A stretch of DNA of 44,867 bases from an uncultured Erysipelotrichaceae bacterium (GTDB taxonomy: Bacteria > Bacillota_I > Bacilli_A > Erysipelotrichales > Erysipelotrichaceae), in assembly GCA_902766435.1 (NCBI GenBank), contig CACXDM010000110.1, forward strand, positions 1-44,867, given 5' to 3'. This document shows positions 11,638 to 23,754 of the stretch, one piece after another (the first letter of the stretch is position 1; each line of letters begins with the position of its first letter). The notes under the pieces were generated by a model. It saw nothing but the letters and a program-made list of their open reading frames with translations, was not told the origin of the DNA and did no database searches. A program made the translations under genes and the position numbers.

Positions 11638-13104
11638 ATGAGCATACTCGTGCTGGACATCGGCACGACCAGTATGCGGGGAATCCTCTATGAAAAAGAC
11701 GGCAGGAAGCTGGCTGTCAGCCGGAAGAAGAATCATCTGATCTTCCTCGGTGACAGTCTGATCGAAGAAGATCCCGATGAATTTACCGGCAACGCGGCTG
11801 ATATCATCTGTGATCTTCTGGCAGACGGAGAAGCGGATGTTGAAGCGGTGGCAGTCACCTCCCAGCGCTCCAGCATCATTCCCGTTGACCGTAACGGAAA
11901 GCCGCTTCTTTCCGCGATCATGTGGCAGGATACCCGCAACAGGGAAATCTGTGACGAACTGTCCGCATATAATCATGAACTGTTTCAAATGACCGGCGCT
12001 GAAGTCAGCACGGTCTTTTCCGGCAGTAAGATGACATGGGTCAGAAGAAATCAGAAAGAGATCTATGAGAAGGTATACAAGTTCCTGAATATACCCGAAT
12101 ATGTGTGTTTCTTTATGACCGGTGAATTTGTTTCAGATCTTACATACGGCAGCCGCACCGGTTTAATGAATCTGCGTACCGGGAAATGGGATCCGGATAT
12201 TCTGAAACTTTATGAAGTGGAGGAAAGACATCTGTGCCGGCTGATTGAACCCGGTCAGACTGCCGGTTATGTAACGGAGAACTTCGCTGCTCTTACCGGT
12301 CTGAAGAAGGGAATACCCGTAATTCACTGCGGCGGTGATCAGCAGTGCGCGGCTGTCGGCCACGGAATCCTTTTCGCCGGAGATCTTTCCATCACGGTCG
12401 GCACCGGCGCGTTCATCGCTGCCGATGTGGATGAACTGCCCGATCCGCTTCCTTCCGGCATGATCTTCAACTGTTCCTCCGTCAGAGGAAAGTATACTGC
12501 CGAAACAAACGTACTGAGCTGCGGCGCCGCCCTTGACTGGTGCGCCCGGGAACTCTACGGCATGGATCATACCGACTATGGCATTCTGGAAGCGGAGCTG
12601 AACAAGGAAAACTTTGTCAGCAGCTGTCTTGTTGTGCCGTATTTCAGCGGCAGGGGAGCGCCTGACTGGGACCATGACGCAAGAGCGGTGTTTTCCGGTA
12701 TTACAACCGCCACAAGAAGAAGCGAGATCTTCAAAAGCATTATGGAAAGCATCTTCATGGAAATTGCCGGTCAGATCGAACGGATATCGGAGACGGTTCC
12801 GGTGAAGGATATACGGATCGGAGGCGGAATGACGGCTTCCGGGGTGCTGAATCAGCTGCAGGCGGATATTTACGGCAGACCCGTACATGTCACAAAAGAT
12901 CCTGAGGCGACTGCTTTCGGCTGTCTGATTACGGCGCTGTGCGGGATGGGAAGATACGCTTCCGCAAAAGAGGCGTATGACGATCTTGCCGTAAAGGATG
13001 AGGAGATCTTTGAACCGGATCTTCAGAAAACAGAACAATACAGAGAGAAAAGAAAAGAGATGAATCATCTCTATGAAACGATCCGGAAAGGAAGGAAATC
13101 ATGA
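11638..13104 (+). CDS. FGGY-family carbohydrate kinase
   Basis: The 488-residue protein has the two-domain FGGY layout. It opens with a phosphate-1 loop (VLDIGTTSMRGILY); middle motifs include SAIMWQDTRN and GGDQQCAAVGHG, and the C-terminal half has ITVGTGAF and IRIGGGMTASGVLNQLQADI. FGGY kinases phosphorylate sugars such as xylulose, ribulose, glycerol or gluconate. Between UlaG and UlaE homologues the likely substrate is an L-pentulose or a sugar acid or lactone entering this pathway, but that is inference. It starts 11 bases after ulaG with AGGGGG upstream. Confidence 0.88.
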   Translation: MSILVLDIGTTSMRGILYEKDGRKLAVSRKKNHLIFLGDSLIEEDPDEFTGNAADIICDLLADGEADVEAVAVTSQRSSIIPVDRNGKPLLSAIMWQDTRNREICDELSAYNHELFQMTGAEVSTVFSGSKMTWVRRNQKEIYEKVYKFLNIPEYVCFFMTGEFVSDLTYGSRTGLMNLRTGKWDPDILKLYEVEERHLCRLIEPGQTAGYVTENFAALTGLKKGIPVIHCGGDQQCAAVGHGILFAGDLSITVGTGAFIAADVDELPDPLPSGMIFNCSSVRGKYTAETNVLSCGAALDWCARELYGMDHTDYGILEAELNKENFVSSCLVVPYFSGRGAPDWDHDARAVFSGITTATRRSEIFKSIMESIFMEIAGQIERISETVPVKDIRIGGGMTASGVLNQLQADIYGRPVHVTKDPEATAFGCLITALCGMGRYASAKEAYDDLAVKDEEIFEPDLQKTEQYREKRKEMNHLYETIRKGRKS

Positions 13105-14144
13105 AGGTAACGAAAAAGAAAATCGGTGAACTGAATAAATGCTATGCCGTATCGACATTCTTCTATGACGGTGCGCCGCATCTGATCTGCGCGGCGGAAA
13201 AACAGGATCCCTGTTTTGCCTTTGATCCGGAAGGAAATTATACGGAAACACTCTGGGAGGGACCGGGCGGTGTCATGACGCTGCTGCAGGCGCCGGATGA
13301 GGAGCCGGTGCTGCTCGCAACCCAGAAATTCTATTCGCCCAACGATTCGGCTGAAGCGAAGATCGTATACTATACAAAGGAAAAAGAAGGATGGAAATGC
13401 AGTGTTCTCTGTGATCTGCCGTTTGTCCACCGCTTCGGCATTGTCAAAGGAAAAGACCGCAGTTATCTGATTGCCTGCACGCTTAAGTCAGCGCATGCAT
13501 TCAAAAATGACTGGACGTGTCCGGGAAGAATCTGGACGGCTGAACTGCCGGCGGATCTGAAAGAATATTCAACGGAACATCAGCTGGTCATGGAACCGCT
13601 TGAAAGCGGTCTGTACAAGAATCACGGCTTTGCCGTACATGAAAAGGAGGACGGCACTTCCTTTGCGGTTGTCGGTACGGAAAACGGTGTATTCATTGCC
13701 GAACCTCCGGCAGCAGCAGGAGGAGAATGGCATTGTGAGAATATTCTTCCGGTTCCCGCAAGTGATGTCCTTTATCTTGACTTTGACGGTGACGGGGAAA
13801 GAGAACTTCTGGTTCTTTCACCGTTCCACGGGGATACGCTTTCCGTATATAAAGACAGCGGGGAAGGCTTTGTCAAAGTATGGCAGAGAGAAAAGAAGAT
13901 GCCCTTCATCCATGCCATATGCGCCGGAGAAATCAACGGTAAGACAGCTGCCTTTGTCGGAAACCGGCAGGAGGACATGGAACTGATCATGATTACATAT
14001 GAAGACGGATATAAAGAAACTGTAATCGATCAGGGGGCCGGACCTGCCAACTGCATGTTCTTCTCATATGAGGGGAAAAAGAAACTTCTCGCGGCCAACC
14101 GTGAGACCAATGAGATCGCGCTTTATACCCTGCAGGAGGAATGA
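13101..14144 (+). CDS. FG-GAP/VCBS-like beta-propeller protein of unknown function
   Basis: The 347-residue protein has no signal peptide. Its repeating beta-strand pattern includes one clear calcium-type FG-GAP/VCBS motif (LYLDFDGDGERELLVLS, about residues 219-235) and weaker related strands (HAICAGEINGKTAAFVGN). The fold suggests a beta-propeller. Such repeats are mostly found in secreted proteins, so a cytoplasmic copy translationally coupled to sugar enzymes is unusual. Its ATG overlaps the kinase stop by 4 bases, and the epimerase start overlaps or abuts its own stop. It could be an isomerase, lactonase or sensor for the same substrate; this is not known. Confidence 0.7.
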   Translation: MKVTKKKIGELNKCYAVSTFFYDGAPHLICAAEKQDPCFAFDPEGNYTETLWEGPGGVMTLLQAPDEEPVLLATQKFYSPNDSAEAKIVYYTKEKEGWKCSVLCDLPFVHRFGIVKGKDRSYLIACTLKSAHAFKNDWTCPGRIWTAELPADLKEYSTEHQLVMEPLESGLYKNHGFAVHEKEDGTSFAVVGTENGVFIAEPPAAAGGEWHCENILPVPASDVLYLDFDGDGERELLVLSPFHGDTLSVYKDSGEGFVKVWQREKKMPFIHAICAGEINGKTAAFVGNRQEDMELIMITYEDGYKETVIDQGAGPANCMFFSYEGKKKLLAANRETNEIALYTLQEE

Positions 14145-16614: not shown

Positions 16615-17277
16615 ATGGGAAACGATATTATACATAAGGCGGAGGAGTATGTCCGCTCCTTCTTTGCCTCAGATTTCAGCGGGCATGACAATGACCATAC
16701 AATGCGGGTATACCGTACGGCATGCCGTCTGGCCGAAGAGGAAGGCGCCGATATGGAAATCACGGCGCTGGCTGCTTTACTGCATGACGTTGATGACCGG
16801 AAGATTTCACCGGAGACAAGTGAATCCAAACTGAATGCGGAGAATTTTCTGAAGAAGAACGGCGTACCTTCAGAACGGTGTGAACGTATACTGCAGGCGG
16901 TAAAAGAGGTTTCCTTTGAGGGAACGGATTCGGTGGTTCCTTCCACGATTGAAGGAAAATGCGTACAGGACGCGGACAGACTCGACGCTCTGGGAGCAGT
17001 CGGTATCGGCCGGGCATTTGCCTACGGTGGCAGTCATCACCGCCGGATGCATGATCCGGATGAAGCGCCTGTGCTGAATATGAACAAAGAGGAATACCGC
17101 TCCCACGTTTCGACAACGGTCAATCACTTTTATGAAAAACTGTTCCTGCTGAAGGACAGGATGAATACACGCAGCGGCAGACGAACCGCAGAGGAACGGG
17201 ACAGATTCATGCATGTGTTCATTGAACGCTTTCTGCGGGAATGGGAAGGTACGGATGAAGAACGGGAGGATCAATGA
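16615..17277 (+). CDS. HD-domain phosphohydrolase
   Basis: The 220-residue protein has the HD motif set: H near residue 24-28 (GHDNDHTMRVYRTA), the HD pair in LAALLHDVDDRK, and a later Asp in CVQDADRLDALGAVGIGR. The layout matches the E. coli YedJ group of HD hydrolases, which act on nucleotides or phosphate esters. It has no visible ribosome binding site and starts 3 bases after the membrane protein, so its translation is probably coupled. Its stop overlaps the next start by 4 bases. Confidence 0.87.
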   Translation: MGNDIIHKAEEYVRSFFASDFSGHDNDHTMRVYRTACRLAEEEGADMEITALAALLHDVDDRKISPETSESKLNAENFLKKNGVPSERCERILQAVKEVSFEGTDSVVPSTIEGKCVQDADRLDALGAVGIGRAFAYGGSHHRRMHDPDEAPVLNMNKEEYRSHVSTTVNHFYEKLFLLKDRMNTRSGRRTAEERDRFMHVFIERFLREWEGTDEEREDQ

Positions 17278-19427
17278 AGGATTACAGAGGAGTAATATTC
17301 GATTTTAACGGCACACTGTTTTTCGATCACGAAAAACATATTCTTGCCTGGAACAGGATTTCCCGTGAGATCCGCGGCAGGGACATCACGAGGGAGGAAC
17401 TCTTCGGAAAATTCAACGGTGTACCGAATGCCATGACGGTCAGACTGATGTTTGACGGTGACTGTACGGATGAAACGGCAGAGAAGTATTCTGCTCTGAA
17501 GGAATCATATTACCGGCAGTACTGTCTTGAAGATCAGCCCGGCTTCCATCTGGTGAAAGGGGCTGTGGAATTCTTTGACAGGCTGAAGGGAAAAGGCATA
17601 CCGATGACGATTGCCAGTGCTTCGATATGGGACAATATTGATTTCTTTATCCGCTCCTTCGGACTGGATCAGTGGGTCAGACCGGAAGACATCGTCTATG
17701 ATGACGGAACGTATGAAGATAAAGTGGCGATGTACCGGAAAGCATCTGAGATCATCGGCGTACCTCTCTCTGAGTGTCTGATTATCGAGGACTCTTTGTC
17801 GGGGATACGGTGCGCCTATGAAGCGGGCTGCCGTAATATCATTGTTGTGAATTCCGCCGGAGACGACGGCGCATATGCGTCCATGCCCGGCGTAACCGGT
17901 GTCATTTCCGACTTTACCGGTTTGACAGACAGGAGAATGAATATGAATGAGAGAATCAATCAGCTGATCAGCTATGCCTTAAAGAACGGCATGATCACGG
18001 AAGAGGAACGGGATTACTCCGTCAACCTGCTGCTGGACCTGTTCGGTCTGGACAGCTTTGAAAAAGTCAATGTGCCTGAAGAATCGGTCTACACGATTCT
18101 TGACGGGATGCTTGACTACGCGGTTAAAAACGGTCTTTGTGAAGACAATACAACCGCAAAGGACCTGTTTGACACCCGGATCATGAACTGCATCATGCCG
18201 CGTCCTTCTGAAGTGATCCGGCGCTTCAATGAACTGTATGAGGATTCACCGGAGAGGGCAACGGACTATTTCTATCATCTTTCCGTGAATTCCAATTACA
18301 TCCGCAAGTCAAGAACGGATAAGAACATCAAGTTCAATCATTTCTGCAAATACGCTGAAATGCAGATCACAATCAATCTCTCCAAGCCCGAAAAGGATCC
18401 CAAGGAGATTGCGGCAGCCAAGCTGATTAAGAGCTCCGGCTATCCCAAGTGTCTTCTCTGTAAGGAAAATGTCGGTTTTGCCGGACATATGAACCATCCT
18501 GCCAGACAGACACACAGGATCATTCCGCTTGATCTTGAAGGAAGACAGTATTACATGCAGTATTCCCCGTATGTTTACTACAACGAGCACTGCATCATCT
18601 TCAACCGCGATCATATTCCGATGACGGTAACGAGAAAGACATTTGAGAATCTGCTTGCATTCATCACAAAGTTCCCGCATTACATGCTGGGATCCAATGC
18701 CGATCTGCCGATTGTCGGCGGCTCGATTCTCACGCATGATCACTATCAGGGAGGCAGACATCACTTCCCGATGGAAGACGCGGAAACACTCGGTGAATTC
18801 GTGATTGACGGCTTTGAGGATGTGAAGGTTGAGATGCTGAAATGGCCGCTGAGCGCGATACGTCTGACGGCTTCCGACAAAAAGCAGATTGTCGATCTTT
18901 CCGATCTGATTCTGAACAAGTGGATCGGCTGGTCCGATGAGAAGTGCGGCATCATCGCCTATACTGGAGATACCCGGCATAATACGATCACGCCTATTGC
19001 CAGAATGAAGGACGGGCAGTATCAGATGGATCTTGTGCTGAGAAACAACCGTACAAGCGAAGAATATCCTCTCGGTATCTTCCATCCCCATCAGGAACAC
19101 CATCACATCAAGAAGGAAAACATCGGCCTGATTGAAGTCATGGGTCTTGCGGTTCTGCCGGCCAGACTGAAGACGGAACTCGAGGATCTGAAGGAATGTC
19201 TGCTGGATAGACAGGTCTTTGAAGAAAATGAGGCACTCATCAAACACAAAGACTGGTATGATTATCTGAGAACACTGGAATATGACGAAAGCACCATTGA
19301 TGAACTGATCGAAAAAGAAGTCACCCGGAAATTCACAATGGTTCTTGAGAATGCCGGTGTATATAAAATGGATGAAAATGGCATCGCCGGTTTTGTCCGC
19401 TTCATTGAAGCGCTCAACGGAAACTGA
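17274..19427 (+). CDS. galT: Fusion: HAD-superfamily phosphatase + UDP-glucose--hexose-1-phosphate uridylyltransferase (GalT type II)
   Basis: One continuous 717-residue frame encodes two enzymes. Residues 1 to about 221 are a HAD protein of the beta-phosphoglucomutase/phosphatase type: motif I DFNGT (D10, with Asn12 where Asp is usual), motif II in TIASAS, motif IV IIEDSLSG. Residues 224-717 are a full type II GalT starting MNERINQL, with the signature DLPIVGGSILTHDHYQGG (D477; H488 and H490). GalT transfers UMP between UDP-glucose and galactose-1-phosphate. There is no linker. An AGGAGA at 17931-17936 sits 6 bases before the in-frame ATG at 17943, so a separate GalT could also be made. galE follows. 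Confidence 0.93.
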   Translation: MKDYRGVIFDFNGTLFFDHEKHILAWNRISREIRGRDITREELFGKFNGVPNAMTVRLMFDGDCTDETAEKYSALKESYYRQYCLEDQPGFHLVKGAVEFFDRLKGKGIPMTIASASIWDNIDFFIRSFGLDQWVRPEDIVYDDGTYEDKVAMYRKASEIIGVPLSECLIIEDSLSGIRCAYEAGCRNIIVVNSAGDDGAYASMPGVTGVISDFTGLTDRRMNMNERINQLISYALKNGMITEEERDYSVNLLLDLFGLDSFEKVNVPEESVYTILDGMLDYAVKNGLCEDNTTAKDLFDTRIMNCIMPRPSEVIRRFNELYEDSPERATDYFYHLSVNSNYIRKSRTDKNIKFNHFCKYAEMQITINLSKPEKDPKEIAAAKLIKSSGYPKCLLCKENVGFAGHMNHPARQTHRIIPLDLEGRQYYMQYSPYVYYNEHCIIFNRDHIPMTVTRKTFENLLAFITKFPHYMLGSNADLPIVGGSILTHDHYQGGRHHFPMEDAETLGEFVIDGFEDVKVEMLKWPLSAIRLTASDKKQIVDLSDLILNKWIGWSDEKCGIIAYTGDTRHNTITPIARMKDGQYQMDLVLRNNRTSEEYPLGIFHPHQEHHHIKKENIGLIEVMGLAVLPARLKTELEDLKECLLDRQVFEENEALIKHKDWYDYLRTLEYDESTIDELIEKEVTRKFTMVLENAGVYKMDENGIAGFVRFIEALNGN
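17931..17945 (+). promoter_or_regulatory. Internal ribosome binding site and start for separate GalT
   Basis: AGGAGA (17931-17936) stands before two in-frame ATGs (17937 and 17943) at the junction of the HAD and GalT parts. The second ATG has 6-base spacing and matches the usual GalT N-terminus. It could allow internal initiation, giving both a fusion and a free GalT, or be a relic of two separate genes. Confidence 0.55.
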
Positions 19428-19447: not shown

Positions 19448-20458
19448 ATGAATGTACTGGTAACGGGCGGCGCCGGATATATCGGCAGCCACATCTGCGT
19501 GGAACTGATCGAAGCAGGACATAATGTTGTCGTCATCGATGACTTCTCGAATTCCAAGCCTGAAGTTCTTGACAACATTAAGAAGATTACGGGCAAAGAA
19601 GTGAAATTCTATGAATTCAACGTTCTTGATGAAGCAAAGACAGAACAGGTGTTCATCGAAAACAAGCTGGATTCCGTCATTCACTGCGCCGCGTTCAAGG
19701 CAGTCGGTGAATCCGTACAGAAGCCGATTGAATACTATACAAACAATCTGATGTCCACTCTCGTTGTCGCAAAGATGATGAAGAAGTACGGTGTGAACAA
19801 TATCGTCTTCAGCTCCAGCGCAACGGTATACGGTGATCCGGAAGTCGTACCTCTGACAGAGGACTGCAAACTCGGTGAGACAACCAATCCGTACGGTTCC
19901 ACCAAGGCGATGATGGAACGCATCCTGACGGATGTTCAGCATGCATGCCCGCAGATGTCGGTTACGCTGCTGCGTTACTTCAATCCGATCGGCGCCCATG
20001 AGTCCGGTCTGCTCGGTGAGGATCCCAAGGGAATTCCGAACAACCTTATGCCTTACATCATGAAGGTTGCGACCGGTGAACTCGAATGCCTCGGCATCTT
20101 CGGTGATGATTACGATACACCGGACGGAACAGGTGTCAGAGACTATATCCACGTTGTCGATCTGGCAAAAGGACATGTATTGGCAATCGAGAAATACGCT
20201 GATCCGGGCGTGCATATCTGCAACCTGGGCACAGGCAAGGGATACAGTGTTCTTGAGATCGTTCATTCGTTCGAAAGAGTCAACGGCATCAAGATCAACT
20301 ATGTCATCAAGCCGAGAAGACCCGGTGACATCGCCATTTGCTACGCCGATCCTTCCCGGGCAAAGAGAGAACTCGGATGGGTTGCCGAAAAGAACATCGA
20401 TGACATGTGCCGCGACACATGGAACTTCGCCAAAAAGCAGATGGAGAAGAAAGCCTGA
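19448..20458 (+). CDS. galE: UDP-glucose 4-epimerase
   Basis: The 336-residue short-chain dehydrogenase-fold protein has the NAD-binding loop TGGAGYIGSH at the N-terminus and the catalytic pair Y149 and K153 (NPYGSTK), numbered as in E. coli GalE, with Ser in FSSSATVYG. It interconverts UDP-galactose and UDP-glucose and so completes the Leloir step begun by GalT. Start 19448 has AGGAGGAG about 8 bases upstream. It is the last gene of the operon. Confidence 0.97.
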   Translation: MNVLVTGGAGYIGSHICVELIEAGHNVVVIDDFSNSKPEVLDNIKKITGKEVKFYEFNVLDEAKTEQVFIENKLDSVIHCAAFKAVGESVQKPIEYYTNNLMSTLVVAKMMKKYGVNNIVFSSSATVYGDPEVVPLTEDCKLGETTNPYGSTKAMMERILTDVQHACPQMSVTLLRYFNPIGAHESGLLGEDPKGIPNNLMPYIMKVATGELECLGIFGDDYDTPDGTGVRDYIHVVDLAKGHVLAIEKYADPGVHICNLGTGKGYSVLEIVHSFERVNGIKINYVIKPRRPGDIAICYADPSRAKRELGWVAEKNIDDMCRDTWNFAKKQMEKKA

Positions 20459-20472
20459 ATTTACTGCCACTG

Positions 20473-20499
20473 AGCCGGCTGTTTTCAGTCGGCTTTTTC
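20473..20499 (+). terminator. Terminator of the galactose operon
   Basis: The stem AGCCGGCT/AGTCGGCT (one G-T pair) with a 6-base loop is followed by five Ts. Confidence 0.8.
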
Positions 20500-21753: not shown

Positions 21754-23754
21754 ATGAAAAAAATCATCTACGGCTGCGCGTACTATGACGAGTACATGCC
21801 TTTTGACAGAATTGACGAAGATATCCGCATGATGAACAAGGCGGGTATCAATACCGTAAGGATTGCCGAAAGCACATGGAGCACTGAACAGCCGAAGGAA
21901 GACGTATTTGACTTTTCATCCGTGATCAAAGTCATGGACAAGATGGAGGAAGCAGGTATTGATGTGATCATCGGTACGCCGACTTATGCCGTTCCCTACT
22001 GGCTTGCCCATAAGTATCCGGACATCATGGCGGATACATCACGGGGTAAGGCGCTGTACGGTGCCAGACAGCTGATGGATATTTCCAATCCCGATTACCG
22101 CCGGGCAGCGGAAACAATCATCCGCCGTCTGATGGAAGTCACCTGTAAAAGAAAATGTGTAATCGGCTATCAGATTGACAATGAAACCAAGTACTATGAT
22201 GCCGCCAATCCCGGCGTGCAGAACGCATTTGTCAGGTATCTGAGGGACAGATTTCATGATGACCTTGATGCCATGAATCATACGTTCGGACTGTCCTACT
22301 GGTCCAACCGGATCACGGACTGGGATATCTTTCCCGATGTGAGAGGTTCCGTCAACGGCAGTCTGAAAGGGGAGTTTGACAAGTTCAGAAGATCTCTTGT
22401 GGATGAATTTCTGGCATGGCAGGCTGCCATTGTCAGGGAGTACAAAAGAGATGATCAGTTCATCACCCACAATTTCGATTTCGAATGGCGGGGATATTCA
22501 TACGGCATACAGCCGATGGTCAATCATTTCCATGCCTCCAAAGCGCTGACAATTGCCGGCTGTGATATCTATCATCCCACACAGGACCTTCTGAGCGGCG
22601 CAGAGATCGCTTTCGGCGGCGATGTGACACGGTCACTGAAACAGGACAATTACTTCGTTCTGGAAACAGAAGCGCACGGCTTTCCGAACTGGCTTCCCTA
22701 TGACGGACAGCTGCGTCTGCAGGCATACAGTCATCTTGCCTCAGGGGCGGATGCGGTCTGTTACTGGCACTGGCATTCCATTCATAACAGCGCAGAAACA
22801 TACTGGATGGGAATTCTGACCCATGACTTTGCGGAAAGCTCCATATATCAGGCAGTATGCGAAACCGGGCAGGAGCTGAAAAAGACCGGTCATCTGCTGG
22901 CCGGACTGAAGAAACACAATCAGACAGCAGTTCTTGTCAGTAATGAATCCCTTACCGCGCTGAACAATTTTCCCATTGATATGGATTCTTCATTCACGGG
23001 ACACACCTTCTACAATGACATTGTCCGCTGGATCTATGACGCGCTGTATCAGATGAATATCGAATGTGACTTCATCACACCGGAAACGGAGGATCTCAGC
23101 CGCTACAGTATGATTGCCGTGCCGGCGCTGTATGATGCGGATGAGGCTGTTCTTAACCGGCTGGATACATTTGTGAAGGAAGGCGGAACACTGATCGCAA
23201 CCTTCAAGACCGCTTATGCGGATACCGATACAAAGGTATATCCGTATACCAAGCCCCACATCCTTCACCGGACATTCGGTCTTTCCTACAATGAATTCAC
23301 GTTCCCGCGGAATGTCATACTGAAGGACAAGGATGGTATCTGCGGACAGGCAGAGGTATTCATGGAACTGCTGAAACCGGAGACAGCGGAAACAATTCTT
23401 TCGTATGAACATCCTTCATGGGGCAGATATACTGCCGCTGCCGTAAACCGTTACGGTAAAGGAAACGCATACTATCTCGGTACAATGTTCAGTCAGGATC
23501 TGCTGAAGAAGATCATCTGTAAAGCGGCAGCCGGTGCCGGAATCAAAACAGAAGGCGGCTTTCCGCTTATCATCCGCAGAGGTACCACTTCGGAAGCCGG
23601 AGAACTCAGCTATTATTTCAACTATTCACAGGATGAACTGACATTTAAGGCACCTGATGAAAAGACAGCTGACCTTTTAAGCGGCAGGGAATTCTCAGCC
23701 GGAGAGACTCTGACACTGAAGCCATGGTCACTGTATATTCTGCAGAAGAAGTGA
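21754..23754 (+). CDS. Beta-galactosidase, GH42 family
   Basis: The 666-residue protein has the three-domain GH42 layout: a catalytic barrel (about residues 1-370) opening YGCAYYDEYMPFDRIDEDI, a trimerisation domain, and a small C-terminal beta domain ending LKPWSLYIL. The acid/base is E144 in YQIDNET, and the nucleophile is in LETEAHG (E304 or E306; E306 fits the family alignment better). There is no signal peptide, so it would cleave imported galactosides or galacto-oligosaccharides. The start at 21754 is preferred; a longer frame overlaps the reductase gene. It fits with the GalT-GalE pair just upstream. Confidence 0.93.
   Translation: MKKIIYGCAYYDEYMPFDRIDEDIRMMNKAGINTVRIAESTWSTEQPKEDVFDFSSVIKVMDKMEEAGIDVIIGTPTYAVPYWLAHKYPDIMADTSRGKALYGARQLMDISNPDYRRAAETIIRRLMEVTCKRKCVIGYQIDNETKYYDAANPGVQNAFVRYLRDRFHDDLDAMNHTFGLSYWSNRITDWDIFPDVRGSVNGSLKGEFDKFRRSLVDEFLAWQAAIVREYKRDDQFITHNFDFEWRGYSYGIQPMVNHFHASKALTIAGCDIYHPTQDLLSGAEIAFGGDVTRSLKQDNYFVLETEAHGFPNWLPYDGQLRLQAYSHLASGADAVCYWHWHSIHNSAETYWMGILTHDFAESSIYQAVCETGQELKKTGHLLAGLKKHNQTAVLVSNESLTALNNFPIDMDSSFTGHTFYNDIVRWIYDALYQMNIECDFITPETEDLSRYSMIAVPALYDADEAVLNRLDTFVKEGGTLIATFKTAYADTDTKVYPYTKPHILHRTFGLSYNEFTFPRNVILKDKDGICGQAEVFMELLKPETAETILSYEHPSWGRYTAAAVNRYGKGNAYYLGTMFSQDLLKKIICKAAAGAGIKTEGGFPLIIRRGTTSEAGELSYYFNYSQDELTFKAPDEKTADLLSGREFSAGETLTLKPWSLYILQKK

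Follow-up and report, generated by a model that had tools for sequence, protein, structure and literature searches.

Organization of the locus

The window analyzed here is a stretch of 44,867 nucleotides from a fragmented draft genome of an uncultured Erysipelotrichaceae bacterium (genome G000; 223 contigs, 88% complete). It contains a single frame of 717 codons, from ATG to TGA, in which a HAD domain and a type II GalT are joined (Table 1). An earlier note on this DNA had described two enzymes in one 717-residue frame, and this was confirmed by Pfam and by the NCBIfam model NF003629. On the 717 amino acid product the Pfam HAD_2 match spans residues 7-191, and those to the two GalT domains, N- and C-terminal, together span residues 241-644. 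A HAD domain, a join of six codons and a complete GalT follow one another. The locus reads, in order, HD-domain protein, fusion, galE, aldo/keto reductase and GH42 beta-galactosidase, and the order HAD-GalT-GalE is also that of genomes G294-296. Foreign composition was considered and rejected, since the GC content of the fusion (~0.49) resembles that of the flanking DNA. Elsewhere in the window, a 347 amino acid protein without a family match is encoded at 13101-14144, flanked by an FGGY kinase on one side and L-ribulose-5-phosphate epimerases on the other.

Table 1. Features of the HAD-GalT locus, in coordinates of the window
Feature	Position	Strand	Basis or remark
Unnamed membrane protein, 274 aa	15787..16611	+	First gene of likely transcription unit; no Pfam/NCBIfam match
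HD-domain phosphohydrolase	16615..17277	+	End overlaps the ATG of the fusion by 4 nt
HAD-GalT fusion	17274-19427	+	Pfam, NF003629
HAD-IA domain, residues 1-217, beta-phosphoglucomutase-like, helical cap	17274..17924	+	Pfam, alignment, model, motifs
HAD motif D10-F-N12-G-T	17301-17315	+	
HAD motif TIASAS	17607-17624	+	
HAD motif YEDK	17712-17723	+	
HAD motif IIEDS	17781-17795	+	
TGA in the +1 frame	17923..17925	+	HAD would end DFTV if one base fewer upstream
Join TDRRMN, residues 218-223	17925..17942	+	Junction comparison; low pLDDT
AGGAG, Shine-Dalgarno-like, 7 nt before ATG 17943	17931..17935	+	Sequence; may allow internal initiation of free GalT
Type II GalT domain, residues 224-717 plus stop	17943..19427	+	Pfam, NCBIfam, motif; sole GalT match in genome
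GalT motif THDHYQGG, residues 487-494	18732-18755	+	HxH-type active-site motif
galE, UDP-glucose 4-epimerase	19451..20458	+	
Terminator-like hairpin 3' of galE	20472..20495	+	
GH42 beta-galactosidase (non-phospho)	21757..23754	+	Downstream neighbor

The two halves of the fusion

The GalT half is full-length, carries the active-site motif and scores 747 bits against NF003629 (cut-off 628; residues 222-715), which establishes its membership in the type II family. It differs from other type II GalTs in its N-terminal HAD domain and in a TIGR01239 score of 648.2, marginally under the cut-off of 650.15. No second GalT match was found in genome G000, and in our tree the protein clusters weakly with the GalTs of G293-296.

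The HAD half adjoins PDB entry 6w04 and the beta-phosphoglucomutases in Foldseek searches, and it shares with the beta-phosphoglucomutase-like HAD-IA hydrolases (TIGR02009; PDB 6w04, 1lvh) the fold, cap type, nucleophile and motifs II-IV. The catalytic set is kept (nucleophile D10, the motif II Ser of TIASAS, K150 and E172-D173), with one exception: the second Asp of the DxD motif, the general acid/base, is replaced by Asn12 in the window protein and by Asn in every aligned member of this DFN clade. The D10N variant of beta-phosphoglucomutase cannot protonate the leaving group (PMC11283535). If the protein is active, a natural Asp-to-Asn exchange at the general-acid position would make for an unusual mechanism. 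The DxD characteristic of beta-phosphoglucomutases is therefore absent, and the scores against their curated models lie far below the cut-offs (49 of 189 bits for TIGR01990 and 60 of 153 bits for TIGR02009). The invariant Asn and the kinship to beta-phosphoglucomutase could suggest that the HAD has lost hydrolysis, its role being that of a sugar-phosphate sensor, a phosphotransferase or a mutase-like enzyme. We consider this quite improbable, given that the Asp10 nucleophile, the motif II Ser, the motif III Lys and the motif IV Glu-Asp are all retained and that the mutase models are not matched at their cut-offs. The closest solved structure, PDB 6w04, shares the DFNGT motif and is that of an Entamoeba histolytica protein, a hint of gene transfer between bacteria and a eukaryote. 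No HAD relatives were found on viral contigs.

The arrangement recalls the bifunctional mannitol-1-phosphate dehydrogenase/phosphatase MtlD (NF046057, 7ocn), in which a HAD phosphatase likewise precedes a sugar-metabolizing enzyme from its own pathway, but the partner enzyme and substrate of MtlD are unrelated to those of HAD-GalT.

The junction and the origin of the fusion

At the junction the HAD domain ends in DFTGL, comparable to DFTEL, DFTEI, DFTDL, DFSEVL and similar ends in its relatives, and GalT begins with its native start, MNERINQ (MNTYINQ, for example, in a relative). The earlier note had described the two enzymes as joined without a linker at the exact GalT N-terminus; the GalT start is indeed the native one, with about six residues between it and the native HAD end. 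In the AlphaFold model of the fusion (28 sequences, mean pLDDT 77, pTM 0.57) the HAD domain is confident, the chain breaks at residues 219-221, where confidence in the junction region is lowest, and the GalT helix begins at residue 224. A frameshift artefact is not our leading view, since the fused frame fits the relatives on both sides and the DFTV end given by the +1-frame TGA fits them less well.

In four species (G293-296) the HAD and GalT genes abut without a spacer and in one frame (HAD-TAA-ATG-GalT), and therefore altering one base of the TAA would be enough to join them. This arrangement fits an origin in which the stop codon separating adjacent HAD and galT genes was lost; the earlier note had likewise proposed a lost HAD stop.

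Among the 316 genomes of the order that were searched, we found a second full HAD-GalT fusion, on contig C147 of G312, which belongs to another family. The domain pair sought in other genomes thus recurs. The G312 protein has 714 amino acids, is 59-60% identical to that of the window, and is the only GalT match in its genome at E<=1e-40. It has ATC where the GalT start ATG is expected, with no ATG nearby, and from its sequence reads as an obligate fusion whose GalT lacks a normal start. Placing the two fused GalT domains in one clade was rejected by the AU test (p-AU 9.5e-5) at a cost of 95 log-likelihood units. Because of this rejection, the fusion arose at least twice or its GalT half was exchanged; a single origin of both fusions is rejected on the GalT tree, the HAD tree being poorly resolved.

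Two other kinds of long frame were set aside. An open frame of 785 amino acids in G047 (L007 646-3000) is a scaffold artefact, in which a stretch of N connects a phosphoesterase-like frame with GalT. Frames of 871-873 amino acids in G465 and G501 of the class (L122:8136-10751 (-) and L121:856-3477 (-)) look like galactokinase-GalT fusions, and we treated them as a different event.

Alternatively, the stop might have been lost neutrally or recently in this one genome, or the contig misassembled; GalT would then be produced from its internal ribosome site, and the fused product would have no special role. The AGGAG and ATG, 7 nt apart, are retained at the GalT start, so that free GalT may also be made from its own ribosome site; no HAD-GalT fusion was found elsewhere in the genus (70 genomes searched) or the family (273 searched), and the draft assembly that includes the contig is fragmented. 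We nevertheless regard this explanation as unlikely: the G312 fusion has no internal start, the motifs of both domains are intact, and the native frame is preserved on either side of the join. The earlier note had considered that a sequencing error might have removed the stop, or that relatives might have separate genes only. Most relatives do have separate genes, yet a second fusion exists; an error on the single window contig is made less likely by the second genome having its own fusion. Since that fusion lies in another family, lacks a start codon at the GalT junction and has a GalT half whose common origin with that of the window is rejected, the window fusion is probably a real two-domain protein.

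Linkage of the HAD gene to lactose-PTS operons

We gathered 38 HAD-carrying loci. The commonest neighbors of the HAD gene are EIIA, EIIBC and a GH1 enzyme, the latter two occurring about 25 times each, and Leloir genes often lie 3' in these operons. In G312 and G294 the operon has LacG, the 6-phospho-beta-galactosidase (663-677 bits; cut-off 561), as its GH1 enzyme, and in G312 this is combined with lactose-type EIIA and EIIBC. The window HAD is up to 61-62% identical to such LacG-linked HADs, which establishes close homology. LacG and lactose PTS genes do not adjoin the HAD in the window, and G000 (88% complete) had no LacG match at E<=1e-100.

LacG exceeded its cut-off in 39 of the 316 genomes of the order, 27 of which also contain a close HAD, defined by E<=1e-60. 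In these 27 the close HAD lies directly behind LacG in 21 (8-28 bases between the matched stretches), is divergent beside a DeoR-type gene in 4 and is on another contig in 2. Linkage of HAD to LacG and the lactose PTS is thus seen in 25 of these 27 genomes, and galT often lies at another site. In several genomes (G034, G220, G166, G182, G071, G072 and G074) HAD lies apart from lac and gal genes. The remaining 12 LacG genomes, 11 of the window's genus plus G297, all have LacB and none has a close HAD at E<=1e-60; LacD exceeds its cut-off in 10 of the 12, and in G047 it is divided between two contigs. LacD was found in none of the 27 genomes with LacG and a close HAD, where LacB scored at the level of RpiB in 23, LacB-like genes occurring somewhere in 4. 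A galactokinase-domain match was present in all 41 genomes tested.

With thresholds chosen after the scores were seen, and with species that are not independent and kinship only roughly handled, LacAB lies beside LacG in 0 of 25 HAD-linked and 13 of 14 unlinked genomes (Fisher p = 2e-9, G047 being counted across a contig break), or, at genus level, in 0 of 15 and 3 of 3 (Fisher p = 0.001). In G166 and G220, where HAD and LacG are unlinked, LacA-LacB are directly behind LacG, in the slot occupied by HAD elsewhere. A sensor role for the HAD protein would leave this exclusion unexplained. Compared with the lac operon of the tagatose-6-phosphate pathway (lacABCD, EIIA, EIIBC, lacG), the relatives also have the lactose PTS and LacG, but LacABCD is replaced by HAD together with galK, galT and galE; the window locus itself differs in having neither LacG nor the PTS.

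A candidate galactose-6-phosphate phosphatase

The product of LacG, galactose-6-phosphate (Gal-6-P), is not directly usable by the Leloir pathway. Our preferred reading, to which we give a probability of roughly 0.58, is that loss of a stop codon fused HAD to GalT, and that HAD is a Gal-6-P phosphatase which feeds the Leloir pathway and replaces the LacABCD route. Lactose would be imported by the PTS as lactose-6'-phosphate and split by LacG into glucose and Gal-6-P; the HAD enzyme would remove the 6-phosphate, galactokinase would re-phosphorylate galactose at C1, and GalT and GalE would complete the pathway, so that the HAD route would substitute for the tagatose-6-phosphate route. Both the substrate and the direction of flux are what we infer. 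Against this reading stand the Asn at the position of the catalytic acid/base, the lack of a LacG match in G000, the LacB-like genes in four of the 27 genomes and the HADs placed apart from lac and gal genes. The benefit of fusion may be a modest one, in that HAD and GalT would be set at equal amounts; since galactokinase acts between the two steps, we would not expect HAD to channel directly to GalT. In the window organism the HAD-GalT-GalE block has no LacG nearby to supply Gal-6-P.

Reports that lactic acid bacteria dephosphorylate Gal-6-P when using lactose and galactose go back to 1994 (Benthin 1994 and Neves 2010, as cited in PMC6085457). The Lactococcus lactis route described in those citations has in common with ours the sequence Gal-6-P, galactose, Leloir pathway, but the phosphatase feeding it in Lactococcus is called 'unidentified' or 'not known' (PMC6085457, PMC6339885), whereas a candidate gene is proposed here. 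Among open-licence papers we found none that names a bacterial Gal-6-P phosphatase gene.

The earlier note had tied HAD to galactose-1-phosphate (Gal-1-P), as a phosphatase guarding against toxic build-up of this intermediate. GalT does use Gal-1-P, and several genomes have HAD close to galT or fused with it; the functional link to galactose metabolism holds. However, HAD tracks LacG more faithfully than GalT, as in G303, G304, G309, G291 and others, where the lac operon contains HAD and galT is found at another site. Next to galactokinase, a Gal-1-P phosphatase would moreover undo the work of that enzyme in a futile cycle, and the Gal-1-P phosphatase already described was used to drive the Leloir pathway in reverse (PMC12324327). 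We thus consider a role in Gal-1-P removal very unlikely and favor Gal-6-P as the substrate.

A search of plasmids returned two distant HADs, the informative one being from Bacillus velezensis, a member of another bacterial order (L127/L128, NZ_CP083716.1 59093-69140). This HAD is 35% identical and has DFNGT, and it forms a divergent DeoR-HAD pair alongside GH53-galT-galE-galK-lac EIIBC-EIIA-lacG, a gene set matching that of the LacG-linked loci above. We rate as about even the chances that the DxN HAD clade is the missing Gal-6-P phosphatase, that it functions despite lacking the customary general-acid Asp and connects the lactose PTS and LacG with the Leloir pathway, and that it swaps with LacAB behind lacG in two families, recurs in Bacillus and became fused to GalT at least twice. 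The candidate gene sits at the position expected for the enzyme and trades places with the LacAB isomerase; it also occurs in a cultivable Bacillus, and the question is therefore open to direct test. The second distant HAD, from L. paracasei, lies among IS elements.
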